NCBI RefSeq assembly: GCF_964340395.1
Contig: NC_135557.1
Span: 26,505,114-26,569,113 of the forward strand
Direction: 5' to 3'
DNA: 64,000 bases
Source: Glandiceps talaboti
Lineage: Eukaryota > Hemichordata > Enteropneusta > Spengelidae
Part shown: positions 955 through 53,260 of the stretch, piece by piece
Layout of the letters: every line of letters begins with the position of its first letter
How positions within the stretch are numbered: position 1 is the stretch's first letter
Program-made: the position numbers and the translations under genes
Notes under the pieces: model-generated
Databases searched by the model: none
What the model was told of the DNA's origin: nothing
What the model saw: the letters and a program-made list of their open reading frames with translations, nothing else

Positions 955-963
955 ATGGCGGCC
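951..963 (+). promoter_or_regulatory. CBL start-codon context with YY1-like motif
   Basis: The start codon sits in CAAGATGGCGGCC, which matches both a good Kozak context (A at -3, G at +4) and the YY1 consensus AANATGGCGGC. YY1 sites overlapping the start codon are a known promoter type. The ATG is the first one giving the conserved CBL N-terminus. Confidence 0.5.
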
Positions 964-25400: not shown

Positions 25401-28400
25401 TTACTACCTAAGCTAACCTAAACTAGGTACTTATAGTATAGAACATTGTACACCCACCACTTACTACCTAAGCTAATCTAAACTAGGTACTTCTAGTATA
25501 GAACATTGTACACCAACCACTTACTACCTAAGCTAACCTAAACTAGGTACTTATAGTATAGAACATTGTACACCAACCACTTACTACCTAAGCTAACCTA
25601 AACTAGGTACATCTAGTATAGAACATTGTACACCAACCACTTACTACCTAAGCTAACCTAAACTAGGTACATCTAGTATAGAACATTGTACACCAACCAC
25701 TTACTACCTAAGCTAACCTAAAGTACCGGTAGGTACTTCTAGTATAGAACATTGTACACTAACCACTTACTACCTAAGCTAACCTAAACTAGGTACATCT
25801 AGTATAGAACATTGTACACCCATCACTTACTACCTAACCTAACCTAAACTACTGGTAGGTACTTCTAGTATAGAACATTGTACACCCACCACTTACTACC
25901 TAAGCTAACCTAAACTAGGTACTTATAGTATAGAACATTGTACACCAACCACTTACTACCTAAGCTAATCTAAACTAGGTACTTCTAGTATAGAACATTG
26001 TACACCCACCACTTACTACCTAAGCTAACCTAAACTAAGTACTTATAGTATAGAACATTGTACACCCACCACTTACTACCTTAGCTAATCTAAACTAGGT
26101 ACTTCTAGTATAGAACATTGTACACCCATCACATACTACCTAAGCTAACCTAAACTAGGTACATTTAGTATAGAACATTGTACACCCATCACATACTACC
26201 TAAGCTAACCTAAACTAGGTACTTCTAGTATAGAACATTGTACACCCATCACTTACTACCTAAGCTAACCTAAACTAGGTACTTCTAGTATAGAACATTG
26301 TACACCCACCACTTACTACCTAAGCTAACCTAAACTAAACTAGGTACTTCTAGTATAGAACATTGTACACCCACCACTTACTACCTAAGCTAACCTAAAC
26401 TAGGCACTTATAGTATAGAACATTGTACACCCACCACATACTACCTAAGCTAACCTAAACTAGGTACTTCTAGTATAGAACATTGTACACCCACCACTTA
26501 CTACCTTAGCTAATCTAAACTAGGTACTTCTAGTATAGAACATTGTACACCCATCACTTACTACCTAAGCTAATCTAAAATAGGTACTTCTAGTATAGAA
26601 CATTGTACACCAACCACTTACTACCTAAGCTAACCTAAACTAGGTACTTATAGTATAGAACATTGTACACCAACCACTTACTACCTAAGCTAACCTAAAC
26701 TAGGTACATCTAGTATAGAACATTGTACACCAACCACTTACTACCTAAGCTAACCTAAAGTACCGGTAGGTACTTCTAGTATAGAACATTGTACACTAAC
26801 CACTTACTACCTAAGCTAACCTAAACTAGGTACATCTAGTATAGAACATTGTACACCCATCACTTACTACCTAAGCTAACCTAAACTAAACTAGGTACTT
26901 CTAGTATAGAACATTGTACACTAACCACTTACTACCTAAGCTAACCTAAACTAGGTACTTCTAGTATAGAACATTGTACACCCATCACTTACTACCTAAG
27001 CTAACCTAAACTAGGTACTTATAGTATAGAACATTGTACACCAACCACTTACTACCTAAGCTAATCTAAACTAGGTACTTCTAGTATAGAACATTGTACA
27101 CCCACCACTTACTACCTAAGCTAACCTAAACTAAGTACTTATAGTATAGAACATTGTACACCCACCACTTACTACCTAAGCTAACCTAAACTAAGTACTT
27201 CTAGTATAGAACATTGTACACCCACCACTTACTACCTTAGCTAATCTAAACTAGGTACTTCTAGTATAGAACATTGTACACCCATCACATACTACCTAAG
27301 CTAACCTAAACTAGGTACATTTAGTATAGAACATTGTACACCCATCACATACTACCTAAGCTAATCTAAACTAGGTACTTCTAGTATAGAACATTGTACA
27401 CCCATCACTTACTACCTAAGCTAATCTAAACTAGGTACTTCTAGTATAGAACATTGTACACCCACCACTTACTACCTAAGCTAATCTAAACTAGGTACTT
27501 CTAGTATAGAACATTGTACACCAACCACTTACTACCTAAGCTAACCTAAAGTACCGGTAGGTACTTCTAGTATAGAACATTGTACACTAACCACTTACTA
27601 CCTAAGCTAACCTAAACTAGGTACATCTAGTATAGAACATTGTACACCCACCACTTACTACCTAAGCTAACCTAAACTAGGTACATCTAGTATAGAACAT
27701 TGTACACCCACCACTTTACTACCTAAGCTAACCTAAACTAGGTACTTCTAGTATAGAACATTGTACACCCATCACATACTACCTAAGCTAACCTAAACTA
27801 GGTACTTATAGTATAGAACATTGTACATGTACAGTTATGTCTTCTGTTAAAATTACAGGGCTGTGCCAGGTAGTATATGTGTCCTGGACTGCTGTTAGTC
27901 AGATTTAGTCAAGTGAACTGTTTCAGTTACAATTTCCTGTTGATTTCCAATGGTCTAACAGACTACTACCTTAAGTTATAAACTACATGCACTTGGATGT
28001 ACATTACATTGTTGATAGTGGTAACAAGTGAAAAGTACATTGGAGTTCATTGACTCCTGTTTGTTTTGTTTGTAGTTACATTTTCCGACTGAGTTGCACT
28101 AGACTTGGACAGTGGGCTATTGGTTATGTGACAACTGATGGCAATATATTACAAACCATACCACAAAACAAGTCACTCTGTCAAGCTCTAATTGATGGCA
28201 ACAGAGAACAGTTGTAAGTATGACAAGAAATTATGAGAGAATGCAGTGATGCATGATTGTTGGTGTGGTATGTTTGGAGTGTGATGGCAACAGAGAACAG
28301 TTGTAAGTATGACAAGAAATTATGAGAGAATGCAGCGATGTATGATTGTTGGTGTGGTATGTTTGGAGTGTTGGCGTAAATGCTTGCAGTGTTCTATTTT

Positions 28401-31400
28401 TGTATTTTTGGACAATGGGCCTATTTATAAGTACTAATTCTAGCCCCACTGTGCACATCCACACACCCACAGAATTGTAATAACATTTTATTATTGGATC
28501 TGGATCATAAATACATAATTTTATTGACTGTAATACTTAAATAATTAATGACTTAGATTTCCAAGAAATGACACTTTAAACAAATAGTTCCTTTCAGCAT
28601 TATATTATTTAATGACTGTAATACTTTAATAATTAATGACTTAGATTTCCAAGAAATGACACTTTAAACAAATAGTTCCTTTCAGCATTATATTATTTAA
28701 TGACTAATAATTTAATAATTAATGACTTAGATTTCCATGAAATGACACTTTAAACAAATAGTTCCTTTCAGCATTATATTATTTATTGACTGTAATACTT
28801 AAATAATTAATGACTTAGATTTCCAAGAAATGACACTTTAAACAAATAGTTCCTTTCAGCATTATATTATTTAATGACTAATAATTTAATAATTAATGAC
28901 TTAGATTTCCAGGAAAGGACACCCAGTAATCAACTGTAAAATTTGTAATGACTGATAATATAATTTTGTTTTATGGGTTGTAATGATGTAAGTATTTTCA
29001 CTACTTTGAAGGATTCCAAATTAATTATCGTATAGAGCAGGTCAGTGAGTGCAGAGTGACATGCCGTATCCGAGTCTAGATTTAGGTCATTTGAAAAAAA
29101 GAATTATATTGTCAAGTCAAAATTGATTGATTTGTTTATTAAGAATAAAGAGGGAAGGAGGAACGGCCAGTCGGTATGAATGAATGAATGAATGAGTGCA
29201 GTGGTGTCATAATCATGAAATGAGACTGTGTCTCATGTTTGCACTCTCACACTTACAAGTGAACAGAGCCCCCATTTCAGAGAATGGTATGCATGCTTTC
29301 TTTTGTTTTTTATTGTGTAGTTATCTCTATCCTGATGGGCATGATCTCAATCCAGACCTGACCAGTATCCTTCAGAAGCCCTCAGAAGAACATATTCTGG
29401 TATCTCATGAACAGTATGAGTTATATTGTGAAATGGGCACCACATTTCAGCTCTGCAAAATTTGTGCTGAAAATGACAAAGATGTTCGTCTAGAACCATG
29501 TGGTCACTTGTTGTGTACACCATGTCTGACTGCATGGCAGGTAAGTTAGGCAATAAAGGCTGGCTAAGGAGGTTGCTCAAATATTGGATTTACCCCTTTG
29601 GATGGGTAGGGGATGTAGTAGGGTGGGGATGGCAGTGGGGGAGGTGAGGGGTGGTATGCCCATTGAAAAGCTATAATGGTATGTGCCAGCCAAGGGGTTC
29701 CACTCTTACAATTGTTGATGTGGAACTGGGTTTACTGTTTGTATTTGTTTTTGTCTAAAGAGTGATTCTGCAAATGTTGTACATGTACATACCAAAGATT
29801 TGAATCATCAAATGGTAACAAAGGTCTGAAAAGGGATGGGAATTTACTGTTGTTCATGTCTAAAAAGTGGTAGGGATTTTTTCATGCTAGCCACACACCC
29901 TATTGCTTTCCAAGGTGTGTACCCTCCACCTTCCATCCCACAAGGGGATTAGTATCTCCAAGTGTTGTATACATGTATGTGTTTGTTTCCTTTTTGCAAG
30001 ATCCTGTATTTTTTATACATGTCTTGTTTTGTAGCTGGTTGGAAATGAAACTTTCAAAGTTTTGACTTCTTTAGATGCTTTGGTTCTGTAATTTACAAAT
30101 CTTGTGTTTGAATAGCCTCCTTAGAGTAACGTAGGGATTGTTCCTTATATGAGAATAGCCCCTTACTATGACATTGGTTGTTTTGTTTGTTCGGACAGCA
30201 TCTTTAGTTTGATATTGGTGTTTTGTTTGTAATGTCATGTGGGTGAATTGCATGTAAAATTTACAAGGAAATGTGAAAGAAAAGAGTTATGGTTAAATAT
30301 ATAATGATAGGTTGTGTTGTTTGCCATAACAATAGGTTGTGTTGTTTGCCATAACAATAGGTTGTGTTGTTTGCCATAACAATAGGTTGTGTTGTTTGCC
30401 ATAACAATAGGTTGTGTTGTTTGCCATAACAATAGGTTGTGTTGTTTGCCATAACAATAGGTTGTGTTGTTTGCCATAACAATAGGTTGTGTTGTTTGCC
30501 ATGCAAGAACTAGATTTGGGTTGCTTGTGTGTTTTTACCTACCTGAAATGATAGAAAAGTGTACATTCCTGATTGCTGTGCAATTTATATATGGATGCAT
30601 GGCAAGTAAACTAACTCACAGCCTTGGTTAGCTTATTGCAGTGTAAAATGATGTCTTTCACATAAATGCTTAAAACACAGCGGAGGAATTCCCTCTATCT
30701 TTATGAAGTGACCCTGATTATAAAAAGGATATGTTTTTAATAAATACAATAATCCTGACATGTCCAATATAGTCTTTCCTGTCTCTGCAGTGTGACCTTG
30801 ATAGAAGTCAGAGGTCTCCAAACTTTAATCCCTATTGCCAAAACACTCTTGAATAATATACTGTTGTATGGTTTGAGTTGACCACAAGTTGAAGCTCGCC
30901 CTCTATAGGCCACTGCTTGATGATTTGCATTCTATACACAGACTGCTACATATTTTGTGTTTCCTTTTCACTTGCACATTTCATTCCTGCCACTATGTCC
31001 ACTAATTCCATTGCTTTCATTGCTATTCTGTTTTCAGACCCGTATGAACCAAAATAAGGTTGGTAAAAAAATCTTCTTTTGGGAATTTGTTCTTTGTTTT
31101 ACGTCAGGAATTTTAATATGATTTCACTTCCTTGTTTTGATTCACAACATGTTGCTTTGTTAATTTTTAAAAAAGTGCCAAAACAATAATGCTAACAAGT
31201 GGGGAATATGTTGTTTATTGCCTTGCCTATTCTGCAGCTGCATTTCTTGACTGCATAAATTTGCATCTTATTAGCTTCAAGACAAGCAGGGTGATCAAAG
31301 TAATTATTGCCCTCAATGTCAGCTTTAAGTTCTGCCAATGATGTATAAATCCATTGTTTCAAAGAGTCACCTGACTTGTGTGAGGTTGATATAATGCCCT

Positions 31401-32616
31401 AAAAGATGATTGGTGAAATATTTTTTGTAACTTATTGGAATGTGTTTCTCCATTTTTCCTTGTGCCATGCTGTCATTATGTTAATGCAAAATGTAGAATA
31501 ACATTAACTATTAATGTCTCATGGTTTAGAGATTGAATGAGATATACGACATATACAGTGTGTGTTGTATGTAGTATGTTCCAGTTTAAAGAGGTCCCAA
31601 GGTCATTATTTATTAGCATTGACCCAGGTCATTAAATATTGATACTGACCTTGTTATTAGTTTATGTAATTCATGGTAATAAGATGTTGATATTGACCTA
31701 GGTCAGTAATTGACCCAGGTCAATAATGGTAATATTGACCTGAAGATACAATGTATTATGATTTCGATATCATGCTATAGCTAATTTTTTCACCAATTTC
31801 AGGATGCTGATGGCCAAGGATGTCCATTTTGTCGAGCTGAAATCAAAGGCACAGAACCAATTGTTGTAGATCCTTTCAACCCCCACAAAGTGTTAAAATC
31901 ACCCAGTCCTGACAGTAAGAATGGTGAAAATAGGAATAGCACATTTTTTGATGCTGATGATGATGACCATTTTGAGGTGAGTTTTCAGAATGAAAAGTCC
32001 TGAAAAGCCACATTTCCTGTGCTATAGTTAGAATTAACCCATATCAGTTATACCATACATACCTCAAAGGTACAATTCCTGTACTATAGTTAGAAGTCAC
32101 ATTGAGTCAACGATGAGTAGGAAAATACAAGTGACCTAAGGGGCCAGTCACATTGAGTCAAGTATGAGTAGAAAAATACAAGTGACCTAAGGGGCCAGTC
32201 ACATTGAGTCAAATATGAGTAGAAAAATAAAAGTGACCTAAGGGGCCAGTCACACTGAGTCAAATATGAGTAGAAAAATAAAAGTGACCTAATTTGAGCA
32301 GCATAAAACACATGATGTAGATGCACATTGTCATGACAGAGAAATAACCGAGTATAAATTTCATTTTTTTTTTGAACAAGAGCAACCAGGCTTGTGTGTG
32401 ACATCAATAATATGCATTGAACTACTATTCAAGTATTTTTCCTGCACACACAAACAAATAATCGTTCAATTGCTTTATTGAATTCTTCCAGGATACCTTT
32501 GTATGTCAAACATTGTCAGAGAGAGAGGGAGGGAGGGAGGGAGGGAGGGAGGGAGGGAGGGAGGGAGGGAGGGAGGGAGGGAGGGAGGGAGGGAGGGAGG
32601 GAGGGAGGGAGGGAGG

Positions 32617-32689
<73 letters not shown>

Positions 32690-35600
32690 AGAGTGTGAGA
32701 GTGTGAGAGTGTGAGTGAGAGAGAGTATTACATAAATGAGTGTATGCGTGTGTCTTCAAATTTGTTGCTACTTGTGTTCACGACCTATACCTGTCTACTT
32801 CATATGACCCCCTCCATTCACACAATATACATAATTATGTACCTTGCACTATACACTATGGTACATGTTGTAAAGGCCATTCTGAATTATAGGTGACACT
32901 GTATTAACCTTAAAACTGTTGAACTATGGCAGCATGTAGTCCTGTTTAATCTCTGTTAGCCAAACGATAACATATAGCCATAATACATGTACTACCAAGT
33001 GGAATCATAACATAAATGTACAGCCCTATAGGCAGAATTGTAAGATGTTGCCCTATAGTCAGAACCATAACATACAGCCCTATAGGCAGAACTTCAGCCT
33101 TATAGGTTGAACTGTATCATGTAGCCCTAGGCCCTATAGGCTACACCATAACAAACCATATAATACATATTATATACCATATCCTATCTCATTGCGTGAA
33201 AACATTGTAGTCTTATCCCTTTTGGCCCATTATACACTAGTATCAGTCATATCTCTGTAGTCCAACTGACCAAACCCTAACTAGTCCTACAGACCAAACC
33301 CTAACTAGTCCTACAGACCAAACCCTAACTAGTCCTACAGACCAAACCCTAACTAGTCCTACAGACCAAACCCTAACTAGTCCTACAGACCAAACCCTAA
33401 CTAGTAGTCCAACTGACCAAACCCTAACTAGTAGTCCAACTGACCAAACCCTAACTAGTAGTCCAACTGACCAAACCCTAACTAGTCCTACAGACCAAAC
33501 CCTAACTAGTCCTACAGACCAAACCCTAACTAGTCCTACAGACCAAACCCTAACTAGTAGTCCAACTGACCAAACCCTAACTAGTAGTCCAACTGACCAA
33601 ACCCTAACTAGTAGTCCAACTGACCAAACCCTAACTAGTAGTCCAACTGACCAAACCCTAACTAGTAGTCCAACTGACCAAACCCTAACTAGTCCTACAG
33701 ACCAAACCCTAACTAGTCCAACAGACCAAACCCTAACTAGTCCAACTGACCAAACCCTAACTAGTAGTCCAACTGACCAAACCCTAACTAGTAGTCCAAC
33801 TGACCAAACCCTAATGAGTAGTCCAACTGTCCAAACCCTAACTAGTAGTCCAACTGACCAAACCCTAATGAGTAGTCCAACTGACCAAACCCTAACTAGT
33901 AGTCCAACTGACCAAACCCTAACTAGTAATCCAACTGACCAAACCCTAACTAGTAATCCAACTGACCAAACCCTAACTAGTAATCCAACTGACCAAACCC
34001 TATCTAGTAATCCAACTGACCAAACCCTAACTAGTAGTCCAACTGTCCAAACCCTAACTAGTAGTCCAACTGACCAAACCCTATCTAGTAATCCAACTGA
34101 CCAAACCCTAACTAGTAGTCCAACTGACCAAACCCTGAAATAATAAATTAATGTATTTATTGTATGTATTAACACTAGGACCCTTCACAGTGGGCTCCTT
34201 CTCCTACTAGTCCTTCAACACAGCCATCACAACTAAAGGTTAGTTGTCCAACTAACTTACAATATTGTGTTCTGTCATGTATGTACATGTGTTCATTTAT
34301 TGTCAGGTACATTCACGTTCATATACTCAATATCATGTCTGTCCACTACATATTTGTTGGTATACAATTCATGTACATCACACTTAAGACTCACAAACTT
34401 GCTTAAGTGTCACATTACACCATAAGATATCTTGCTGTTATTAAGCAGATCATTCCTTGCGATCACAAAGTTGTTTAGGGAGAGGCAGGAATAGTGCTTG
34501 GGGTAATTGTCATTTTAGGAAGGCCTGTATTTGTATAGCTATATTAATGATGCTATATTAACATTCACATAACTGCTAACATGCAATGTAGTAATACTAA
34601 TAATTCCTATCATCCATTTCCTCATATTACAGTGTAAATCATATATAATGTCATATTGCAATCAGTGTGCCATCATGTATGCAAGTTGTGATCTTAGAGC
34701 TGCACTGTCATAATTGTCATTAATGTTTTACATATGTGTAACTTAAATTAATGCTAAAATCTAAGTGTTGAAAATGGTGTTTTTACCACTGCTTGAAAAC
34801 TGTCATACCAGTGATCATGTGACTACATTTACCAGTGATCATGTGACTACATTTACCAGTGATCATGTGACTTACATTTCATTTTAACACTGCATCAGAT
34901 TTCAAAATAAAGACATTAATAGTATGGTAACTTGAGTTGTATATGGTGTTTTAAATTTGTCATGCTGTATACACACAGCAGGTATCTGCAATCCCTCTCA
35001 CAGCATAAACGTGACTACAACTGATTACTCAGTTCAAAGCAAACACGAGAATCTTTCTAGTAGTCACATTTACACTGTGAGAGGGGTGGGTGGTACATAC
35101 CAACACATTATGGCACTGCTGTAGTCACATTTACACTTTGAGAGGGGTGGTACATACCAACACATTATGGCACTGTTGTAGTCACATTTATACTCTGAGA
35201 GGGGTGGTACATACCAACACATTATGGCACTGCTGTAGTCACATTTACACTGTAAGAGGGGTGGTACATACCAACACATTATGGCACTGCTGTAGTCACA
35301 TTAACACTGTGAGAGGGGTGGTACATACCAACACATTATGGCACTGCTGTAGTCACATTTATACTTTGAGAGGGGTGGTACATACCAACACATTATGGCA
35401 CTGCTGTAGTCACATTTACACTGTGAGAGGGGTGGTACATACCAACACATTATGGCACTGTTGTAGTCACATTTATACTTTGAGAGGGGTGGTACATACC
35501 AACACATTATGGCACTGCTGTAGTCACATTTACACTGTGAGAGGGGTGGTACATACCAACACTTTATGGCACTGCTGTAGTCACATTTACACTGTGAGAG

Positions 35601-38600
35601 GGGTGGTACATACCAACACATTATGGCACTGTTGTAGTCACATTTATACTTTGAGAGGGGTGGTACATACCAACACATTATGGCACTGCTGTAGTCACAT
35701 TTATACTTTGAGAGGGGTGGTACATACACATTATGGCACTGCTGTAGTCACATTTACACTTTGAGAGGGGTGGTACATACCAACACATTATGGCACTGCT
35801 GTAGTCACATTTATACTATGAGAGGGGTGGTACATACACATTATGGCACTGTTGTAGTCACATTTATACTATGAGAGGGGTGGTACATACACATTATTGT
35901 ACTGCTGTTAAAACCTAAGTGTGAACATTGCTTAATGTAGCTCTATGTTATGGTGTGGATAGAAATATATAATTATAAAATTATATGTAGTAAGAGACTA
36001 AGCCTTTGAAGTTAAATTTACAGTTACCAGGTGCAGCAGGAGGGGTATCAAAAAGTAAAGGTGCTAGTAACAGCAAAGATAGGGGGCCTTTACCACCATT
36101 GCCACCACCGAGAAGGCCAACGCCAACATCATCACCTCAGCCTTCCCCTCACAGCTCACCCCAGTTGTTACGGAGAAAACTGCCAGATGTCAATGTCCCC
36201 AGTCCTAAGCTTCCACCAAGAAATCTTGTGAGTCGAGACAGTCAGGAAAACACAGACACAACTCCAGATACAGGTAACAAACTATTGTACTTCTCTATGT
36301 ATCATCACCATGTCTCTTATAAGTGTTAATAAGAAACATTGAACCTAATTCATTCCAGTTAACAGAGACTGTTTTTAAGACACTAGTTTTCTTAGACTGT
36401 ATAACCTTGAATCAAAGTATAGACAAATCAGTTTTGCATCACAAATAAATGAAATAAACCACTTCAATGGTAAATGTAATACCATGCTGTAGAATTCTCA
36501 GTTTATAATAGTACATCTCCAGGACAGTTAATTTGATTTTACAGGACATTTTGGGGGCAAACGTAAGTTAAATATGATAAATCATCAAACCATCTCTGAG
36601 CCATACTGTTACCATCAGTAATTTCAGATACTTTAAACATTGACATTTCTGTTATTGCAAAATCCTATAAATTTTGGGTTTGTAAATGGGTCTGAAGGCC
36701 TACTTGTTTACCTTATTGAGTAAATTTGGTTACAATGGACATGTGTAGTACCACCTATTACAGTGGACATGTATAGTACCACCTATTACAGTGGACATGT
36801 ATAGTACCACCTATTACAGTGGACATGTATAGTACCACCTATTACAGTGGACATGTATAGTACCACCTATTACAGTGGACATGTATAGTACCACCTATTA
36901 CAGTGGACATGTGTAGTACCACCTATTACAGTGGACATGTATAGTACCACCTATTACAGTGGACATGTATAGTACCACCTATTACAGTGGACATGTATAG
37001 TACCACCTATTACAGTGGACATGTATAGTACCACCTATTACAGTGGACATGTGTAGTACCACCTATTACAGTGGACATGTATAGTACCACCTATTACAGT
37101 GGACATGTGTAGTACCACCTATTACAGTGGACATGTGTAGTACCACCTATTACAGTGGACATGTGTAGTACCACCTATTACGTGGACATGTATAGTACCA
37201 CTTATTACAGTGGACATGTATAGTACCACTTATTACAGTGGACATGTATAGTACCACCTATTACAGTGGACATGTATAGTACCACCTATTACAGTGGACA
37301 TGTATAGTACCACCTATTACAGTGGACATGTGTAGTACCACCTATTACAGTGGACATGTGTAGTACCACCTATTACAGTGGACATGTATTGTACCACCTA
37401 TTACAGTGGACATGTACAGTACCACATATTACAGTTGACATGTATAGTACCACCTATTACAGTGGACATGTATAGTACCACCTATTACAGTGGACATGTA
37501 CAGTACCACATATTACAGTGGACATGTACAGTACCACTTACTACAATGGACATGTATAGTACCACCTATTACAGTGGACATGTATAGTACCACCTATTAC
37601 AGTGGACATGTATAGTACCACCTATTACAGTGGACATGTGTAGTACCACCTATTACAATGGACATGTATAGCACCACTTACTGCAGTGGACATGCATAGT
37701 ACCACCTATTACAGTGGACATGTATAGTACCACCTATTACAGTGGACATGTATAGTACCACCTATTACAGTGGACATGTACAGTACCACTTACTACAATG
37801 GACATGTATGTAGTACCACTTAATTTAATGTTTTTCCTTTGTCATGACATTACAATTTGTTAAAGACAAACATTTTCAGGTTTGTTTTGACTTATAAAGC
37901 TCAGAAAGCTTTTCAGTTGTGTTGACTCTTACTCTTAAGAAAGGAATACACAAAACTATTTGTAGACTGAAGAAGTTAGTTGCAATCAGCATCGACAGGT
38001 GAAAGTGAGATTATTAAAGTCTGTAAGCATTCCTGATAGTAGCTAGTTGCACACAATACACTTTATGTTACCAATAAATGATAGTAGCTAGTTGCACATA
38101 ATGCACTTTATGTTACCAGTCAATGCAACTGTTAAACCTTCCATCACAATAATAATGCATGCTTCAACAATAACTACACCAACATACATAAATAAACTCA
38201 TGAAAAAGTAGTTCCAGGTATAGACTTACTCTCTGTCCTGTGGCTATTGCAATGCTATTATTTTACTTAAGCATATCCAAAGTGACTGTTGTTCTGAGTT
38301 TAACAATATTCTGTAATTCAGTTTCTATATGTGTATGTGTATAAATACATGAAATGGTCAGATAATTAGTAAATGATGATGCATTCTCTGTGAACACATA
38401 GGTTAAATTGAATTGTAGACAGTAACAACAAAAGAAGGCTGAGTTAGTCACTATAACAACAGAAGGCTGGGTTAGTTACTATAACAACAGGAGAAGACTG
38501 AGTTAGTCACTATAACAACAGAAGGCTGGGTTAGTTACTATAACAACAGAAGGCTGGGTTAGTTACTATAACAACAGGAGAAGGCTGAGTTAGTCACTAT

Positions 38601-41600
38601 AACAACAGAATGCTGGGTTAGTTACTATAACAACAGAAGGCTGAGTTACTATAACAACAGAAGGCTGGGTTAGTTGCTATAACAGAAGAAAGCTGAGTTA
38701 GTTACTATAACAACAGAAGAAGGCTGAGTTAGTTACTATAACAACAGAAGGCTGGATTAGTCACTATAAGAACAGAAGAAGGCTGAGATAGTTACTATAG
38801 CTGAACTTCACTAGGTAAATTATTTATACCCTGAATTGGGAACTCATACAGTGAGTTATAAATACAGGTACTTGTCCAAACTGATGTAATAGAATGACAA
38901 TTCAGCAAAGCCATGGGACTGAAAGTGCATCTATATCTAGTCTAGTGCGATCTGTGTCATTGAATCTCAACATCTCTCTCTACCATGGGTAGATCTAGAC
39001 TATAGTATATACCAGGTACAGCCCATGGGATTGAAAGTGAGTCTATTCCAGTTTATGAAGCTTTTAATATTTCATAGTCTATACCTGGTACAGCTTCTGG
39101 CACTTTAAATATTTCATTGTACATTTCCTACACCTCATCATTGTAGGTTCAAGACACACGCATTTAATGCCAGAAGATGCCGAATGGAGCACAACAAGTG
39201 GTTGCCAAGTAACGCATGACCTTGTGACATTAGACACTGTCTACGATAAACTGTCGGATGCGACGACGGCAAATCCCAACGGTAGCAGTCAGGGTACGAT
39301 TTCTATTGATCCATTGGAAGGAGAGACTATCAATCCAATTTATGAAGGAAATAAAGTTAATCCAATATATGAAGGGGATAGAATTAATCCGCTGTTTGAA
39401 GGGGATAAGATTAACCCTATCTATGAAGGAGCACCTGCTAGTCCTCTTTACGAACATGTCTCTGATGCATATAGTAATCCACCGCCACCTCGTAGTCAGC
39501 GCTCTACTAACACATCACTAGGTAATGCACGCTTTATTCCTGGGCCAGTATCTTTTACTTTTGTGTTTCTCCTTATTTGAGTGAACTAAATTGCATGCTT
39601 GATTAATGATAATCTTCAATGTAAGTAAGTTTAACCCTTAAAATGCCATGTCTATTGCGATAGTGAAAATACTTGTGTGGTCCTAGCGCCTTCTATGGCC
39701 AGGTAATGTATATACTAGCATAACATTTTCAGGGTTGACCATGAATAATATGTAAATCATATTTATGTGTACTTTAATTATTTGCATTTGTGTGGGTAAC
39801 ATAGATATGACTGTGCATGTCCTGTATGTATACTGTTGATCAATATTAAGTGATGTATTTTTCTAATTTATGGAAGTAGAAATGATTTTCAAATAGTTCT
39901 TTACTTGTGTTACTCTCATGAATTGGTTTCAAAAATGGTTAAGTAATGAGATAAGTTATGCAGATTTGTTTGATTTGTAACATATGATATTGGTATCTTT
40001 ACTAATCTTCCCCTTGGCCAGTAACATATGATATGGGTATCTTTACTAATCTTCCCCTTGGCCAGTAACATATGATATGGGTATCTTTACTAATCTTCCC
40101 CTTGGCCAGTAACATATGACATGGGTATCTTTACTAATCTTCCCCTTGGCCAGTAACATATGATATTGGTATCTTTACTAATCTTCCCCTTGGCCAGTAA
40201 CATATGATATGGGTATCTTTACTAATCTTCCCCTTGGCCAGTAACATATGATATGGGTATCTTTACTAATCTTCCCCTTGGCCAGTAACATATGATATTG
40301 GTATCTTTACTAATCTTCCCCTTGGCCAGTAACATATGATATGGGTATCTTTACTAATCTTCCCCTTGGCCAGTAACATATGATATGGGTATCTTTACTA
40401 ATCTTCCCCTTGGCCAGTAACATATGACATGGGTATCTTTACTAATCTTCCCCTTGGCCAGTAACATATGATATTGGTATCTTTACTAATCTTCCCCTTG
40501 GCCAGTAACATATGATATGGGTATCTTTACTAATCTTCCCCTTGGCCAGTAACATATGATATGGGTATCTTTACTAATCTTCCCCTTGGCCAGTAACATA
40601 TGATATGGGTATCTTTACTAATCTTCCCCTTGGCCAGTAACATATGATATTGGTATCTTTACTAATCTTCCCCTTGGCCAGTAACATATGATATGGGTAT
40701 CTTTACTAGTCTTCCCCTTGGCCAGTAACATATGATATGGGTATCTTTACTAATCTTCCCCTTGGCCAGTAACATATGATATGGGTATCTTTACTAATCT
40801 TCCCCTTGGCCAGTAACATATGATATGGGTATCTTTACTAATCTTCCCCTTGGCCAGTAACATATGATATGGGTATCTTTACTAATCTTCCCCTTGGCCA
40901 GTAACATATGATATGGATATCTTTACTAATCTTCCCCTTGGCCAGTAACATATGATATGGGTATCTTTACTAATCTCCCCCTTGGCCAGTAACATATGAT
41001 ATGGGTATCTTTACTAATCTTCCCCTTGGCCAGTAACATATGATATGGGTATCTTTACTAATCTTCCCCTTGGCCAGTAACATATGATATGGGTATCTTT
41101 ACTAATCTTCCCCTTGGCCAGTAATATATGATATGGGTATCTTTACTAATCTCCCCCTTGGCCAGTAACGTATGATATCTGGCTCAATTATAATGAAATT
41201 TGGAATATATAATCTTTAGGGTAATGGCTAGACCTGATTAGGTTTTGAGCCAGATCTGTTAATGTTTAATTAGAGAAATTTGCATATTAATGAAATCAAC
41301 TAATTAAGTAATATTTTAAGACTGCATACTTCAATTTCAATATAAGTTAGTACATTCGTTAAACATAACAACATACATTTGTCATATAAAATTTGGTGAT
41401 GTGCCTTACAGCGTTAACAAATAATTTGCATAATTAATTATTTTTGGTAATTAAGCTATATCTTAAGAATGCATCCTTCATATTCAACATAATTTAGTAC
41501 ATACGCTAATCATGAGAAAACACATATGTCCTATCAAGTTTGTTGATGTACCTTTCAGTGTTAATGAATAATTTGACAATGCATAATTAATGATTCTTGG

Positions 41601-44010
41601 TAATTAGGCTATATCTTACGACTGCATACTTCAATTTTAATACAATTCAGTACATACATTAACCATAACAAATTGTGTATGTCCTATAAAGTTAGTTGAG
41701 GTACCTTACAGTGTTAATGAATAATTTGCATAATTAATGATTTTTGGTAATTAGGCTATATCTTAAGACTGCATACTTCAATTTCAATACAATTTAGTAC
41801 ATAACGTTAAACATAACAGAGTGCATATCTCCTATAAAAGTTGTTGATTTTGTTTGAAGATTTAGTGAATAATTTGCATAATTAATTATGTTCGGTAATT
41901 AGGCTATATCTTAAGACTGCATACTTGAATTTCAATATAATTTAGTACATACGTTAACCATAACAAAGCAGATATGTCCTACAAAATATTTGATAAAGCT
42001 TAGTCAGTTTTAATGAAACATTTGCATAAATATTTATTTTAGGTAACTAGGTTGTATCTTAAAAATGCAAGCTTCAAATTTCATATAATATGATACATAT
42101 ATCAACCATAATAATACGCACCTGTCCTATGAAGTTTGTTCCTACAACTTTTACCTTTAATGAGTATTTTGAATAATGAGCGATATTCAGTAATTAAGCA
42201 GTATCATGCAATCTTCAAATTCCGTATAATTTGGCACATATATTAACCTAAGAAAGCACGCTTGTCCAAAACCAAAACCTGTTACCATAGTTTTTTTTTA
42301 GTTTAATGAGTTATTTGCATAATTAGTGATTCCCTTATGGGAGGCATTCAGTTTAAATCTGGTAAGATAACCTTGGAGAATCCACATTATATGGCAATAG
42401 AATATTAACTGTAAATGACAATTGATCAAACAAAATCACCAAAGCACAAGAAAGAACTTTATTTCTTGCTCAATTTCCATATGTTGTAAGAAAGTGTCGA
42501 ACTTTTTACATCAATGCTTTGAGTGCTAATCAGTACCAAGGTGAGGATACCCAATGATGTGTGAGGGTGGACAATAAGTGTACTTAAACCACAATTTATC
42601 ACGACTTCCCTCTATCTCAGTCTCTCCTAATATGTGATATTTCTCAAGTAAATCTATAGTTTAATCTTGACCACAACAAAACAATAAATGTCTGTTACTA
42701 GAGGGTACATTGCTTTAATGGTGTAGATGGTTATGGAATAGCTACCATATTCTGAAGGTGAAATTTTAACAGACTGAGTATGTTTTTGCACTACAATAAT
42801 AGTATAGACAAACTTGTTACAACTGGTTGTTTCAGAGGACCAAAGCAGCAATGGTTATGTAAATGAAAATACCAACAACAGCCACAGTATATTGCTATAG
42901 TAAAGTTTGGATTTAGTATATATGTCTGTTACATTTTCCTCAGCCCATCTGTTTTGTGACTTTCTGTCACAATTTTTTCAGGTGTGTGTATTTTGTTGGG
43001 TTGTCAGTGCCTATCAGTATCATTTTAATTTAAGTCATGTCTGTATCATTTTAGGTGGTCACTAAGTCATGTCTGTATTATTTTAGGTCACCAAGTCATG
43101 TCTGTATCATTTTAGGTCACCAAGTCCCTGATGACTATGATGTACCTCCAGCATTAAGAACGATTGACAATAATCCACTTCTTCCCAGGCCACAAGTGCC
43201 GTCATCTCTACCAACCATTGTACTCCAAGAAGATTATGATTTCCCACCTCCACCACGGAAAGCACCGCCACATGAAAATCATAACACTGTGAGTTGAGTT
43301 TGCTATGTTGCATGAATTTCATTTCACTTTCAGACACCCAGGCAGACATGATGGATTGCATATTTCAAGTTTGCAGACCAAGATACTTTATAAACTGAAA
43401 CTTTAGTACCAGTCAATATAAAGACATGATTCTAAAGTTGTCAAAGCCCCCTAGGTATGGCATGATTCTAAAGCTGTCAAAGCCCCCTAGGTATGGCATG
43501 ATTCTAAAGTTGACAAAGCCCCTAGCTAAGGCATGATTCTAAAGTTGTCAAAACCCCCGAGGTATGATATGATTCTAAAGTTCTTAAAGTCCCTAGGTAA
43601 AGCATGATTCTAAAGTTGTCAAAGCCTCCTAGGTATGACATTCTTAATACCCTCTAGGTATGACATGATTCTAAAGTTGTCAAAGCCTCATAGGTATGAC
43701 ATGATTGTAAAGTTCTTAAAACCCCTAGGTATGGCATGATTTGTACATCACAAAGTTTTCAATTATTTCCATCTATTAGAGATCAGAAAATGTAGAGCAT
43801 AAAGATGATGTGATGTATGCAACACCAATGAGGAGAACAATTCCATCGGACAACAGTGGTGGCAGTGCAGCTGAAGCATTAACAGCAATTGAACAGTTAC
43901 TTCAGGAAGGGTACACACAAGATGCTGTAGTACGAGCATTGGGTATCGCACACAACAACATAGATATGGCAAGGAACATATTAAGAGAGTTTGCACCTAG
44001 CAAACACTAA
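955..44010 (+). CDS. CBL: CBL-family E3 ubiquitin-protein ligase, complete, 10 coding exons
   Basis: A RING E3 ligase that binds phosphotyrosine on activated receptor tyrosine kinases and ubiquitinates them at the membrane and on endosomes. The joined exons (955-1475, 19937-20215, 28076-28213, 29321-29540, 31803-31976, 34179-34238, 36024-36273, 39147-39521, 43116-43288, 43780-44010) total 2421 nt and give 806 residues with no internal stop; every junction is GT-AG. Domains: four-helix bundle about 27-150, EF-hand about 152-225, SH2-like about 225-328 with the phosphotyrosine-binding Arg271 and Gly283 (counterparts of human c-CBL R294 and G306), linker Tyr345 and Tyr348 (Y368, Y371), RING C358-C361-C373-H375-C378-C381-C393-C396 with Ile360 and Trp385 at the E2 contact sites, proline-rich 465-547, tyrosine-rich 580-690, UBA about 763-801. 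Human c-CBL has 906 residues, so the tail is somewhat short. Identity is certain at family level. A single copy of this type fits an invertebrate pro-orthologue of CBL and CBLB, but that is inference. Confidence 0.97.
1476..2569. other. Start of CBL intron 1, apparently unique sequence
   Basis: AT-rich, no coding signal on either strand and no clear repeat. It begins with the exon 1 donor. Confidence 0.6.
2570..3140. repeat. Degenerate tandem array, about 31-bp unit
   Basis: Two or three copies of a longer TTAACAGTTCAGTACATGTT unit are followed by about 13 copies of a unit with core TCATTTCATGTCTACATGGT. Several units carry insertions. Confidence 0.85.
3289..4219. repeat. Minisatellite, 59-bp unit, about 15 copies
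   Basis: Very homogeneous copies with core TTAGCTTATCAAGGGTTGAT. Variants differ by single bases, so the array expanded or homogenised recently. Confidence 0.95.
4220..4720. repeat. Broken tandem repeat with CTCTTTCTCCCTAGGGG core
   Basis: Five or six diverged copies of a roughly 50-bp unit (TTGGTCCTCTTTCTCC...TATTTGTTTGTA), interrupted near 4390-4560 by unrelated sequence. Confidence 0.75.
4974..5091 (-). repeat. Two 59-bp copies of a dispersed SINE-like core
   Basis: On the minus strand each copy reads GGGTTTCAATCCCAGGTTCT, resembling the internal B box of tRNA-type pol III promoters. Related copies lie at about 5340-5430 (+), 5732-5782 (-), 47895-47960 (-) and 60775-60850 (+). No A box or SINE end is defined. 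Confidence 0.5.
5805..6072. repeat. Dispersed repeat copy A with 46-bp triplication
   Basis: Shares order and wording with 17582-17755: GGTAACAGAAA, a TTCCCAT segment, then GGTAGATTTTACCT and ACCAACCTTAA. In this copy the end segment is repeated three times at exactly 46 bp (5935-6072). Confidence 0.65.
6236..7955. repeat. Minisatellite, 51-bp unit, about 33 copies (copy 1)
   Basis: Core GAAATTACAAGAGGGCTCAG. The period is 17 codons, so several frames stay open on both strands and give periodic 17-residue peptides ([15 protein letters not shown]). They have no start context, homology or non-periodic part, so I do not call a gene. Units with a 10-bp ATACATGTAC insertion at about 6474, 6892, 7157 and 7677 mark larger block duplications. 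Confidence 0.95.
7956..9015. other. Intron 1 spacer without gene
   Basis: AT-rich sequence with no exon-like segment. One short motif (AATACAAGTGACCAAAGGGG, 8475-8494) recurs, slightly changed, in the array at 32095-32292. Confidence 0.6.
9016..10555. repeat. Minisatellite, 27/31-bp units, about 54 copies
   Basis: Core AGAGAAATACTGGCCCATGA. Units come in a 27-bp form and a 31-bp form with an added CTTA, so the frame drifts. The open frames on both strands (MFMGQYFST-type) are periodic artefacts. Confidence 0.95.
10556..11274. other. Intron 1 spacer with short (CA)n tract
   Basis: A (CA)n run at 10837-10866 and TACATGTA clusters near 11190-11215. No coding signal. Confidence 0.6.
11275..12085. 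repeat. Minisatellite, about 28-bp unit, about 28 copies
   Basis: Core GGGGTATTTGCACAAGTGTG with variable joins (GACATACTA, AGGTACTA, GGTGTACTA). It degrades toward the right end, next to the transposon at 12098. Confidence 0.92.
12098..13067 (-). mobile_element. Nonautonomous DNA transposon, 970 bp, with TIRs and 7-bp TSD
   Basis: Ends are inverted repeats: left 12098-12137 and right 13036-13067, identical over 32 bp apart from an 8-bp insertion (TTACTCAG) in the left one; both begin CATGGAAG. Outside them lies a perfect 7-bp direct repeat CTGTGAC (12091-12097 and 13068-13074). A second inverted pair of 19 bp (12210-12228 and 13004-13022, GTACAGTCATCGCCTCCGC) is subterminal. Inside, on the minus strand, is an exon for a PHD-like zinc finger. 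No transposase is present, so this is a deletion derivative. CATG ends, 7-8 bp TSD and subterminal repeats recall P-type elements, but the superfamily is not settled. Confidence 0.85.
12662..12850 (-). CDS. Transposon-borne first exon with PHD-like zinc finger (partial)
   Basis: Begins at an ATG (12850), encodes 63 residues starting [20 protein letters not shown], and ends [20 protein letters not shown] plus CPV at a possible donor (GTAAAT from 12661 downward). The C-x-C ... C-x4-C pattern with [11 protein letters not shown] matches the first half of a PHD finger, in which WFH normally follows; the continuation is missing inside the element. A 12-bp palindrome GCGTCATGACGC (12866-12877) lies just upstream of the ATG. 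The reading is by motif only. The 71-codon frame to the stop at 12626 is the alternative. Confidence 0.5.
13150..13570. repeat. Short-period array of TGTGATG, TGCTG and TATTG
   Basis: Five-base steps such as TGTGCTGTGATGTGATGTAT repeat irregularly for 400 bp. The open frame [12 protein letters not shown] here is an artefact. Confidence 0.92.
13571..14924. other. Intron 1 spacer without gene
   Basis: AT-rich unique sequence with TACATGTA motifs near 14610-14630. No exon-like segment seen. Confidence 0.55.
14925..17002. repeat. Minisatellite, 45-bp unit, about 46 copies
   Basis: Core GACTTGGCTATCTGACTTGA. Two unit types alternate irregularly (ACACAGGCTTGACAG and ATACTGGCTTGACA). The 15-codon period produces minus-strand open frames of [15 protein letters not shown] repeats. 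I treat them as non-coding. Confidence 0.95.
17003..17581. other. Intron 1 spacer without gene
   Basis: Very AT-rich; nothing recognisable. Confidence 0.55.
17582..17755. repeat. Dispersed repeat copy B
   Basis: Diverged copy of the 5805-6072 repeat (TTTGCTAAGGTTTGGGAACC ... GGTAGATTTTACCTACTTAC). The end segment is single here. Confidence 0.6.
17855..17970. repeat. Two copies of a 57-bp unit
   Basis: TATATGTTATTGTCACTTTT and the following ACCTATATGTATGTTTATAC recur twice. Confidence 0.85.
18045..18134. repeat. Two copies of a 45-bp unit ending CCCTGTCCCCACACAAA
   Basis: Direct duplication with one mismatch region at the end. The second copy runs into a possible miniature element (18110-18396). 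Confidence 0.85.
18110..18396. mobile_element. Possible miniature element with CCCTGTCCC ends
   Basis: Left ACCCTGTCCC and right GGGACAGGGCT form short inverted termini, and several inward GATTCGG/AATCGATT and GGTTCAA segments recur in inverted order. The target duplication is unclear (perhaps TA), so the call is tentative. Confidence 0.35.
18425..19786. repeat. Minisatellite, 24-bp unit, about 56 copies
   Basis: Core CTGTGTCCATAGTCTACAGG. The 8-codon period gives plus-strand frames of 429 and 354 codons (VSIVYRLS or VHSLQAIC repeats), the longest frames in the window. Start context, homology and a unique segment are all lacking, and the array lies wholly inside CBL intron 1. Confidence 0.95.
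19937..20215 (+). CDS. CBL: CBL exon 2: EF-hand and start of SH2-like domain
   Basis: Acceptor TTCTTGCAG ends at 19936 and donor AAG/GTAGGT starts at 20216. It completes codon 174 and encodes 175-266, including [20 protein letters not shown] of the calcium-binding EF-hand region and [17 protein letters not shown] leading into the SH2 fold. Phase 2 in, phase 2 out. Confidence 0.96.
20365..20775. mobile_element. Foldback element with 7-bp TSD
   Basis: A perfect ACTATGG direct repeat (20365-20371, 20769-20775) flanks TTAGCTCTGG ... CCAGAGCTAA termini. Inside, arms of about 110 bp (20502-20611 and 20636-20745) are inverted copies around a 24-nt centre. About 109 bp (20393-20501) is present in the left arm only. 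No coding capacity. Confidence 0.8.
20905..21690. repeat. Minisatellite, 51-bp unit, copy 2 in intron 2
   Basis: Same unit as at 6236-7955 (GAAATTACAAGAGGGCTCAG core) with about 14 copies. The right half uses a 60-bp variant with an extra TTAGTGTTG-type insertion and AGAGAAAACAG. Outer copies are strongly decayed. Confidence 0.92.
21691..23290. other. Intron 2 spacer without gene
   Basis: No exon-like segment. Ends in four copies of ATAAGTTATTG (about 23290-23335). Confidence 0.55.
23605..24335. repeat. Minisatellite, 54-bp unit, about 13 copies
   Basis: Core GTCCTGGACTACTGCTAATT joined to AGTCTAGATACAATGTTTAG. CTAGAC/GTCTAG segments make each unit partly self-complementary. Confidence 0.92.
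24336..24679. other. Intron 2 spacer without gene
   Basis: AT-rich, nothing recognisable. Confidence 0.5.
24680..27830. repeat. Largest array: 60-bp minisatellite, about 52 copies
   Basis: Core TATAGAACATTGTACACCCA joined to CTACCTAAGCTAACCTAAAC. Diagnostic variants (AAAGTACCGGTAGG at about 25720, 26757 and 27548; AGGCACTTATAG at about 25130 and 26401) recur in the same order, showing block duplication of about 1 kb. No long open frame. Confidence 0.96.
28076..28213 (+). CDS. CBL: CBL exon 3: SH2-like domain core
   Basis: Acceptor TTTGTTTGTAG ends at 28075 and donor TT/GTAAGT starts at 28214. It encodes residues 267-312 with [19 protein letters not shown], including phosphotyrosine-binding Arg271 and the loop Gly283. 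The last 20 bases and the donor are duplicated in the intron 89 bp downstream. Confidence 0.96.
28194..28371. repeat. 89-bp tandem duplication covering the exon 3 end and its donor
   Basis: 28194-28282 is repeated at 28283-28371 with few changes. The copy includes the last 20 coding bases of CBL exon 3 and a full TTGTAAGTATGAC donor at 28303. Confidence 0.93.
28490..28915. repeat. Tandem repeat, about 86-bp unit, 4-5 copies
   Basis: Core TTAATGACTTAGATTTCCAA followed by GAAATGACACTTTAAACAAA. It fills most of CBL intron 3. Confidence 0.9.
28916..29320. other. End of CBL intron 3
   Basis: A short (GAAT)n run near 29176-29195, then the exon 4 acceptor. The open frame starting at 29196 runs from intron into exon 4 and is only real from 29321. 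Confidence 0.6.
29321..29540 (+). CDS. CBL: CBL exon 4: end of SH2, linker helix, first part of RING
   Basis: Acceptor TATTGTGTAG ends at 29320 and donor CAG/GTAAGT starts at 29541. It encodes residues 313-386: end of the SH2-like domain, the linker with Tyr345 and Tyr348, and RING ligands C358, C361, C373, H375, C378 and C381, ending at Trp385-Gln386. It ends in phase 0 in the variable loop before the last zinc pair. Confidence 0.97.
29541..30300. other. Intron 4, left part
   Basis: No second gene. Contains a G-rich stretch (29600-29660) and TACATGTA motifs. Confidence 0.5.
30305..30502. repeat. Minisatellite, 25-bp unit, 8 copies
   Basis: Nearly perfect copies of ATAACAATAGGTTGTGTTGT plus TTGCC. 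The period is not a multiple of three and every minus frame is open, which shows that such frames mean nothing. Confidence 0.95.
31038..31058 (+). CDS. CBL: Candidate 21-nt CBL microexon (RING loop)
   Basis: A strong pyrimidine tract and TTTTCAG end at 31037, and a weaker donor AAG/GTTGGT starts at 31059. The 21 nt encode TRMNQNK in phase 0, matching the phase-0 intron between exons 4 and 5. Inclusion would put seven residues between Trp385-Gln386 and the last RING cysteine pair. Supported only by splice signals and phase. Confidence 0.3.
31803..31976 (+). CDS. CBL: CBL exon 5: last RING cysteines and acidic segment
   Basis: Acceptor CAATTTCAG ends at 31802 and donor GAG/GTGAGT starts at 31977. 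It encodes residues 387-444. [16 protein letters not shown] supplies C393 and C396, then TEPIVVDPF, then an acidic run [10 protein letters not shown] like the Asp-rich segment that follows the RING in vertebrate CBL. Confidence 0.96.
32095..32292. repeat. Minisatellite, 51-bp unit, 4 copies
   Basis: Core AATACAAGTGACCTAAGGGG with AGTCACATTGAGTCAA. The core also occurs singly at 8475-8494. Confidence 0.9.
32517..32720. repeat. Purine tract (GGGA)n then (GA)n
   Basis: About 100 bp of GGGA repeats followed by about 60 bp of GA: an uninterrupted purine strand of roughly 180 nt in CBL intron 5. Open frames here are GREGGREG or SLSLSL artefacts. Confidence 0.97.
32721..33250. other. Intron 5 spacer without gene
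   Basis: Short CCCTATAGGC-type repeats around 33020-33150, otherwise nothing recognisable. Confidence 0.5.
33255..34140. repeat. Minisatellite, 24/27-bp units, about 34 copies
   Basis: Core GACCAAACCCTAACTAGTAG with two variants (TCCTACA and TAGTCCAACT). Periods of 8 and 9 codons keep a 310-codon minus frame open (VRVWSVGLL). It is not coding. The array ends 38 bp before CBL exon 6. Confidence 0.95.
34179..34238 (+). CDS. CBL: CBL exon 6: short Ser/Pro-rich exon
   Basis: A 60-nt phase-0 exon encoding residues 445-464 ([20 protein letters not shown]). Acceptor AACACTAG ends at 34178, only 40 bp after a 24/27-bp minisatellite; donor AAG/GTTAGT. It aligns by position with the vertebrate stretch containing PPSPF. 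It could be skipped without changing frame. Confidence 0.85.
34239..35049. other. Intron 6, left part
   Basis: Three 24-bp copies of ACCAGTGATCATGTGACTAC (about 34807-34875); otherwise no signal. Confidence 0.6.
35050..35905. repeat. Minisatellite, 57-bp unit, about 15 copies
   Basis: Core GAGAGGGGTGGTACATACCA joined to ATTATGGCACTGCTGTAGTC. The 19-codon period opens frames on both strands. Confidence 0.95.
36024..36273 (+). CDS. CBL: CBL exon 7: proline-rich SH3-binding region
   Basis: Acceptor AATTTACAG ends at 36023 and donor G/GTAACA starts at 36274. It encodes residues 465-547 plus one base. [11 protein letters not shown] is a typical SH3 ligand, and two PxxxPR motifs (in PLPPPR and PKLPPR) match the form bound by CIN85/CD2AP SH3 domains in vertebrate CBL proteins. 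The binding itself is inferred. Confidence 0.92.
36700..37830. repeat. Minisatellite, 28-bp unit, about 39 copies
   Basis: Core ACAGTGGACATGTATAGTAC plus CACCTATT, highly homogeneous, in CBL intron 7. Confidence 0.96.
37990..38120. repeat. Two copies of a 45-bp unit
   Basis: TGATAGTAGCTAGTTGCACA followed by a CACTTTATGTTACC segment, twice. Confidence 0.8.
38410..38805. repeat. Minisatellite, about 28-bp unit, about 13 copies
   Basis: Core GAGTTAGTTACTATAACAAC with AGAAGGCTG; units vary in length. Confidence 0.9.
38806..39146. other. End of CBL intron 7
   Basis: Contains a short diverged duplication (TACCAGGTACAGCCCATGGG at about 39010 and ATACCTGGTACAGC near 39080). No exon seen. Confidence 0.5.
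39147..39521 (+). CDS. CBL: CBL exon 8: tyrosine-motif exon with internal 9-residue repeats
   Basis: Acceptor CATCATTGTAG ends at 39146 and donor G/GTAATG starts at 39522. It encodes residues 548-672 plus one base. It holds VYDKL (Tyr580), then six 9-residue repeats over about 600-652 with core NPIYEG: tyrosines at 613, 622, 640 and 649, and Phe at 631. PPPPRSQR follows. The repeat block has no counterpart that I recognise in human CBL. Confidence 0.93.
39302..39460 (+). repeat. In-frame 27-bp repeat inside CBL exon 8
   Basis: Six diverged 27-bp units encode nine residues each, ending in PLEG, PIYEG, PIYEG, PLFEG, PIYEG and PLYEH. Because 27 is a multiple of three, copy-number change keeps the reading frame. 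Synonymous differences between copies suggest the repeat is old and held by selection. Confidence 0.9.
39970..41178. repeat. Minisatellite, 44-bp unit, about 27 copies
   Basis: Core ATCTTCCCCTTGGCCAGTAA joined to CATATGATATGGGTATCTTT. It is the most homogeneous array in the window, which suggests recent expansion. Confidence 0.97.
41179..42330. repeat. Old diverged tandem repeat, about 145-bp unit, about 7 copies
   Basis: Recurring order: TTGCATAATTAAT, GGTAATTAGGCTATATCTTA, AGACTGCATACTTCAATTTC, TTTAGTACATA, AACCATAACA, TGTCCTATAAA. Copies decay rightward. Confidence 0.8.
42331..43030. other. Intron 8, right part
   Basis: No exon-like or repeat signal recognised before the acceptor duplications. 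Confidence 0.5.
43031..43117 (+). repeat. Three tandem copies of the exon 9 acceptor region
   Basis: AAGTCATGTCTGTATCATTTTAG/GT-type units end at 43054, 43086 and 43115. The first two lead into in-frame stops (CAC TAA; TTT TAG). Only the third gives the conserved exon 9 frame. Confidence 0.9.
43116..43288 (+). CDS. CBL: CBL exon 9: YDVPP and YDFPP tyrosine motifs
   Basis: Acceptor ATCATTTTAG ends at 43115 and donor ACT/GTGAGT starts at 43289. It encodes residues 673-730 with DDYDVPPAL and [15 protein letters not shown]-type sites are CRK SH2 ligands in vertebrate CBL (YDVPKPPVP). Two near-copies of the acceptor lie just upstream. Confidence 0.94.
43410..43745. repeat. Tandem repeat, about 38-bp unit, about 8 copies
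   Basis: Core CATGATTCTAAAGTTGTCAA with AGCCCCCTAGGTATGG; diverged. It fills intron 9 up to exon 10. Confidence 0.88.
43780..44010 (+). CDS. CBL: CBL exon 10: UBA domain and stop
   Basis: Acceptor CTATTAG ends at 43779 and the stop TAA is at 44008-44010. It encodes residues 731-806. [20 protein letters not shown] (from 763) and [14 protein letters not shown] form a UBA fold closely matching the C-terminus of vertebrate CBL, used for dimerisation and, in CBLB, ubiquitin binding. Confidence 0.97.
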   Translation, partial: RSENVEHKDDVMYATPMRRTIPSDNSGGSAAEALTAIEQLLQEGYTQDAVVRALGIAHNNIDMARNILREFAPSKH

Positions 44011-52099: not shown

Positions 52100-53260
52100 C
52101 TAAGGAAGTTCTACAACTGTTGGTGCATACTCCCCTTCTTCAAATCCATCAAAATCCCACTTAAACTTTTTGGTCAAACTCTCTTTAAATTTACGTCCTC
52201 TTGTTTTCAACTGATTGCCAGCCTTTGACTCGGCTAAATTATTGAAAAATTCTGCCAAACATGTGGTAAGGAAATTATCTCTTGACACGATATCAACAAA
52301 GAAATCCTTAGGAATCTCTACAAGTTGAAAATGAATAGTTGTCATGAAAGTGTTATACAAGTTACTGTGTTTATTGATGGCTTCCTGACAACTACATAGT
52401 AGATGGAAAAGTTTCTTCCACTGCTCAAATGAATCGTAGACCTGGCCGAGGAGAAAACAGATAAATGCAAACTGTAGTTCCCCTAAGATGCCAAGTTCAT
52501 TGTCCTTATATTTTAAGTTTAACAGTGTATCAAGAGCATAACTGGAATCCATGCTGTATTTTGTGACCTCTGCTGGGCTTGCACCTTTTGGGTACTTCTG
52601 TGGAATTTCCGAAAAATGGATTATTGCTTCTGGCTTGATATGCATCTTAGGGAGCTTCTCTTCCATTGATGCATCATCGGGTACACTTGCACGAATTTCT
52701 GCTCGTTGTTTAGTGGTACGTGATTCCTTGTCTCCAACTAGTTCAGTCACTGATGAAATCTTGCAGTTATCTGGTACTAATGTATTCATGAGTGATTCTG
52801 TAATTTGATTGGTTAAAGAAACCCATTGTTTAAGACTTCCATATGGGTATGGTCCAAGGAATGAGTCCATCTGTTCTCGATTACATTCAAATCTATCCAT
52901 TTCTTCCTCTGTTGCTTTGAAGTCGCTGATATCTTCCAATCTTGCATTCCACTTCTTTACAAGGATTTCTCGCTGCTTGAAATGATAAAAGAATCCAGAA
53001 CGTGGTGCCACATCATTGGTTTTACTTACAGCACTGTAATAGATGAAATGAACTCCAGGTGGTATCATCTTGACCCCTCTGAACTTTGACCCAACAGTCC
53101 AGGAATTATAATCAATTCCAAACTCTGTACCCTCAGGGACATCAAGGAAGAGCAGTATAGCGCCCTCTTGAAACAGCTTATTGGCAGTGTCTGGGTCCAT
53201 TTCTAGTTCGGCTTCCTCAGCGGAATCTGACTTGCTACGTTTGGATGATGACGCCATCAT
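52100..53260 (-). CDS. AAR2: AAR2 splicing factor homologue (U5 snRNP assembly), complete
   Basis: AAR2 holds the spliceosomal protein PRP8 in a cytoplasmic U5 snRNP precursor and is replaced by BRR2 in the nucleus. The 386 residues match the family's usual length (human about 384). The N-terminal beta domain shows LFQEGAILLFLDVPEGTEFG and then YNSWTVGSKFRGVKMIPPGV, the most conserved stretch of the family, followed by GFFYHFKQREILVKKW. The helical C-terminal domain includes ELGILGELQFAFICFLLGQV and FEQWKKLFHLLCSCQEA. An in-frame TGA directly precedes the first ATG (53261-53263), fixing the start at MMASSSKRSKS. The stop is TAG at 52100-52102. The coding part is a single exon. A 5'UTR intron is inferred from 53270 up to 56019. 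It is tail-to-tail with CBL across about 8 kb, with no functional link suggested. Confidence 0.96.
   Translation of the reverse strand: MMASSSKRSKSDSAEEAELEMDPDTANKLFQEGAILLFLDVPEGTEFGIDYNSWTVGSKFRGVKMIPPGVHFIYYSAVSKTNDVAPRSGFFYHFKQREILVKKWNARLEDISDFKATEEEMDRFECNREQMDSFLGPYPYGSLKQWVSLTNQITESLMNTLVPDNCKISSVTELVGDKESRTTKQRAEIRASVPDDASMEEKLPKMHIKPEAIIHFSEIPQKYPKGASPAEVTKYSMDSSYALDTLLNLKYKDNELGILGELQFAFICFLLGQVYDSFEQWKKLFHLLCSCQEAINKHSNLYNTFMTTIHFQLVEIPKDFFVDIVSRDNFLTTCLAEFFNNLAESKAGNQLKTRGRKFKESLTKKFKWDFDGFEEGEYAPTVVELP

Follow-up and report, generated by a model that had tools for sequence, protein, structure and literature searches.

The tails of CBL proteins are docking platforms for SH2 and SH3 proteins, and phosphotyrosine docking in the tail of human CBL involves Y700, Y731 and Y774. 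Many SH2 domains read position +3 relative to the tyrosine, CRK binds YxxP sites, and a substrate strip of the p130Cas type offers CRK many YxxP motifs. Human integrin beta1 ends in VVNPKYEGK; ligands of talin carry a Trp at position -8, and those of Shc/Dab-type PTB domains a hydrophobic residue at -5. To our knowledge, the tail of human CBL, which lies outside the aligned chains, has no NPxY.

PMC3507883 describes the specificity of PTB domains as lying on the N-terminal side of the tyrosine, with NPXY as the commonest motif, and states that most PTB domains prefer the unphosphorylated tyrosine. In integrins, a natural NPxF is found at the equivalent site of integrin beta2 as NPLF (PMC4479986), the integrin beta2 tail recruits talin via its NPXY/F motif (PMC6450878), and NP(L/I)Y is accepted by talin (PMC11187247).

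We analyzed a window of 64,000 nucleotides from the genome of the hemichordate Glandiceps talaboti (590,416,875 bases in 47 contigs), the plus strand of which carries a complete CBL gene of 10 exons with GT/AG borders and a single open frame of 803 amino acids (Table 1). With the probable exon 6 included, the ten joined exons reproduced the residue numbers given in a first-pass annotation of this DNA, among them Tyr613, 622, 640 and 649. Pfam domain scores were taken on a 783-residue version of the protein from which the 20 residues of exon 6 were left out. Cbl_N, Cbl_N2 and Cbl_N3 of the TKB domain (185.5, 135.6 and 155.1 bits) and a RING after the TKB linker (zf-C3HC4_3, 45.9 bits, residues 356-402) all scored above their cut-offs, and a UBA domain (PF00627) was placed at the expected C-terminal position just below its cut-off (21.6 against 22.4 bits). 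Residues 24-411, from TKB to RING, aligned end to end with the solved human CBL 4a4c (E 2.2e-207). The protein shares with human CBL and CBL-B this region, a probable UBA-like C terminus and YxxP sites in the tail (two in exon 9 and one in exon 10), and it appears to differ from them in having a repeat exon with NPx(Y/F). When the genome was searched with Cbl_N2, no paralogue came up, the one match among 12 candidates scored being the window's own gene, and no CBL relative was confirmed in prokaryote (43 pattern stretches) and virus (2 stretches) collections, as expected there.

Table 1. Positions in the window of the CBL exons, the units of the repeat, the adjoining tail motif and a neighboring gene
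Feature	Position	Strand	Description
CBL exon 1	955..1475	+	start codon, N-terminal part of TKB; phmmer against human CBL 5hkw, E 2.6e-66
CBL exon 2	19937..20215	+	
CBL exon 3	28076..28213	+	SH2-like part of TKB
CBL exon 4	29321..29540	+	linker and RING
CBL exon 5	31803..31976	+	end of RING, start of tail
CBL exon 6, probable	34179..34238	+	20 aa, phase 0/0; placed by splice signals and frame, not by homology
CBL exon 7	36024..36273	+	proline-rich tail
CBL exon 8 (repeat exon)	39147..39521	+	375 nt, phase 1/1
Unit 1, degenerate	39302..39325	+	24 bp, SIDPLEGE, no Tyr codon
Unit 2	39326..39352	+	27 bp, TINPIYEGN, Tyr613
Unit 3	39353..39379	+	27 bp, KVNPIYEGD, Tyr622
Unit 4	39380..39406	+	27 bp, RINPLFEGD, Phe631
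Unit 5	39407..39433	+	27 bp, KINPIYEGA, Tyr640
Unit 6	39434..39460	+	27 bp, PASPLYEHV, Tyr649; SPLY replaces NPxY
DAYSNPP	39464..39484	+	Tyr656, directly after the repeats; fits the CBL TKB ligand pattern
CBL exon 9	43125..43288	+	YDVP Tyr677, YDFP Tyr710
CBL exon 10	43780..44010	+	YATP Tyr740, probable UBA, stop
AAR2 splicing-factor gene	52103..53260	-	PF05282, PF20981; long open frame, neighbor of CBL

The introns of this gene contain tandem arrays of their own. Two of them, far apart at 6239-7937 and 21067-21601, share much of one unit (AGAAATTACAAGAGGGC...AGTGTCCCTGTTACCTTGT...AGAGAGAA) and hence form one repeat family in CBL introns 1 and 2. Another, with a period of 27 bp and 33.8 copies (33257-34136), stops some 40 bases short of the probable exon 6. 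Its open frames span 300 codons on the plus strand and 313 on the minus strand, a warning that nothing can be concluded from a 27-bp array being open throughout. Intron 1 also holds an open frame on the minus strand (12629-12868) with a Cys-rich stretch that gave no Pfam match, and that we take to resemble the start of a PHD finger.

Exon 8 is bordered by an acceptor (...cattgtag/GTTC at 39147) and a donor (CTAG/gtaatg at 39522), and since its phase is 1 on both sides, in-frame skipping is possible. The first-pass annotation had read six in-frame units of 27 bp in this exon, which is correct for five of them (39326-39460), whereas the first is shorter and has no Tyr codon; its count of four Tyr units and one Phe unit in (N/S)P(I/L)YE(G/H) matched the units as we read them, one of the six thus having neither residue. 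Tandem Repeats Finder detected the array independently (39317-39431, period 27, 4.3 copies, 73% matches, 0% indels, score 104). Units 2-5 read NPIY, NPIY, NPLF and NPIY, and these consecutive copies are the only NPx[YF] motifs of the protein. What the first-pass annotation overlooked is that NPx(Y/F), the core motif of PTB/FERM-F3 ligands, which in contrast to an SH2 site is read on the N-terminal side of the tyrosine, is present in four of the six units, one after another. Shuffling the residues of the 333-residue tail produced four NPx[YF] in 3 of 100,000 trials, a figure that overstates the surprise because the copies arise by duplication.

Pfam on the repeat exon alone returned a sole match far below cut-off (E 0.59), and the PDB search with the repeat peptide returned one, a ribosomal protein matched by chance (E 1.6). 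Scoring of the best 136 candidates in the genome brought up no second copy of the peptide: 104 matched with E <=10, one of which was the query, the best of the others reached E 0.0025, and the nine inspected among these 103 were all simple tandem repeats, none with an NPx[YF]. AlphaFold, run on exon 8 without an alignment, gave a mean pLDDT of 46 and no fold, and this segment of the tail is probably flexible.

We consider that the tandem NPx(Y/F) strip is most likely a docking site for readers of the PTB/FERM type, with a probability of about 0.5. Exon 8 supplies a row of four NPx(Y/F) motifs, NPIYEG three times and NPLFEG once, with a decayed copy at either end, and the strip would act as a multivalent docking site for PTB/FERM-F3 domains of integrin-tail or endocytic-adaptor readers, candidates being those of the talin, kindlin, tensin, Dok, Numb or Dab types. 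Phosphorylation would be dispensable for binding, in part or altogether, and phosphorylation of the tyrosines could tune it. Through such docking the ligase would reach adhesion or endocytic complexes independently of its TKB domain and its YxxP sites. That PTB/FERM domains bind here, which of them does so and what follows from it are points that we infer from sequence. Several observations count against a simple PTB reading. The upstream determinants of talin and Shc/Dab ligands are missing from the repeats, in which position -5 of units 2-5 is T, K, R and K and no unit has a Trp, a residue that is present in the integrin tail of the host. Kindlin-2 is described as facing a Lys at the X position (PMC11187247), where the repeats have Ile or Leu, and the Dok1 PTB domain binds the unphosphorylated integrin beta2 NPLF peptide very weakly, with a Kd of 16 mM (PMC4479986).

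The integrin-beta tail found in the same genome (contig C5), encoded by a pair of exons (46.9 and 31.2 bits), reads ...HDRREFAKFEKERQNAKWDA / GENPIYKQATSTFKNPTYKGAAL followed by a stop, its first part ending in NAKWDA. The NPIY of CBL is identical to that of this tail, its NPLF is as in integrin beta2, and its VNPxYEG is as in integrin beta1; the integrin beta1 end, VVNPKYEGK, used as a query, matched PDB chains including the kindlin-2 fusion 5xq0, and is close to unit 3. CBL differs from integrin beta in that it is not a membrane receptor, in that it has four copies at a spacing of nine residues against two, and in the absence of the upstream Trp. A more specific version of the PTB/FERM reading, which we put forward as tentative and rather doubtful, is that CBL imitates integrin-beta tails, and that the tandem array would occupy talin/kindlin- or Dab/Numb-type adaptors multivalently and so join adhesion or receptor endocytosis with receptor ubiquitination. 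We know of no description of such an adaptor-occupying route for CBL. An NPxY array in CBL did not come up in our literature searches, which does not mean that none has been published. Like a strip of the p130Cas type, the CBL strip has tyrosine motifs in tandem within a stretch that is probably disordered, but its motifs are NPxY/F and not YxxP, which would imply another reader domain, and the copies are far fewer.

Docking of SH2 proteins at phosphotyrosines, the number of which would have been raised by unit duplication in this lineage, had been the first choice of the first-pass annotation. It is the foremost of the alternatives, although we hold it to be rather unlikely. The four tyrosines have an acidic residue at +1 and lie in a known phosphotyrosine docking region, the CBL tail, and YxxP sites follow in the next exons, from which the context of the repeats differs, as had been pointed out. 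Constant in units 2-5 are E at +1 and G at +2, but also N at -3, P at -2 and I/L at -1, whereas +3 varies (N, D, D and A in units 2-5, V in unit 6). Moreover, unit 4 has a Phe in place of the Tyr and unit 1 has no Tyr; the Phe of unit 4 is easier to reconcile with an NPxF site than with an SH2 site.

A second alternative, which we regard as unlikely, is that the array is what slippage left behind in a disordered tail, where it is tolerated and has no role in binding. Tandem arrays abound in the window, units 1 and 6 have decayed, and the low pLDDT suits a disordered tail, which is a weak argument. On the other side, units 2-6 are all of 27 bp, no second copy turned up when the genome was searched for the peptide, and units 2-5 keep their core despite high synonymous divergence. 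In the NPIYEG core of these four units pS was 0.72 and pN 0.09, against a pN of 0.40 in the linker codons, and 8 of the 10 core changes relative to the consensus were at third positions. Star-like neutral simulations gave equally few residue changes in 36 of 100,000 runs for units 2-5 and in 21 of 100,000 for units 2-6, a result which, in view of the intronic control, overstates the case. For the comparison between arrays, codon pairs with a local identity below 0.6 or with a stop codon were dropped, also in the exon, leaving 23 of 36 adjacent pairs for units 2-6 and 27 of 27 for units 2-5. The exon array had a pN/pS of 0.33-0.35 in its true frame and of 0.84 and 3.79 in the two wrong frames, but 2 of the 18 frames in which six intronic arrays were read fell below the true-frame value (0.22 and 0.14), so that a low pN/pS is no proof of selection. 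In the two intronic arrays concerned, at 18430-19779 (0.22) and 35060-35890 (0.14), one frame has most of its changes at a single codon position, probably through duplications that copied the same change.

The same comparison bears on the age of the array. Synonymous divergence between neighboring units was 0.58-0.59 in the exon array compared to 0.013-0.149 in the six intronic arrays, and the exon array therefore looks old and without ongoing homogenization. Identity one period on was 65% in this array, while nine others in the window had 72-100%, measured without gaps, which makes arrays with slipped units appear less alike than they are. These two values speak against an active coding minisatellite with recent, homogenized units, and the earlier term 'coding minisatellite' is apt for the form of the array but not for its divergence; an array that looks old and is not being homogenized is better described as a repeat of docking motifs.

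Binding of phosphorylated Tyr656 in DAYSNPP by the TKB domain of CBL itself, in cis or in trans, with the array as a spacer or oligomer scaffold, is very unlikely: the motif fits the TKB ligand pattern (D/N)XpY(S/T)XXP and the TKB-RING region is aligned over its full length with human CBL, but the pattern occurred in 3,795 of 100,000 shuffles, which makes DAYSNPP a weak lead only, it accounts for one tyrosine and not for the repeats, and the Sprouty and Syk complexes described in the paper that gives the pattern have Asn at pY-2, where Asp is found here (PMC2943896).

If the PTB/FERM reading is true, an integrin-type NPxY/F strip would add a PTB/FERM route to a CBL tail and link the ubiquitination of receptors with adhesion or clathrin adaptors. 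The repeat also offers a natural titration of the number of motifs, with Tyr, Phe and Tyr-less versions within one protein. Judged from its motifs, the CBL of this hemichordate, with its short and apparently old array of an integrin-like motif, may be able to hold adhesion-type adaptor proteins.
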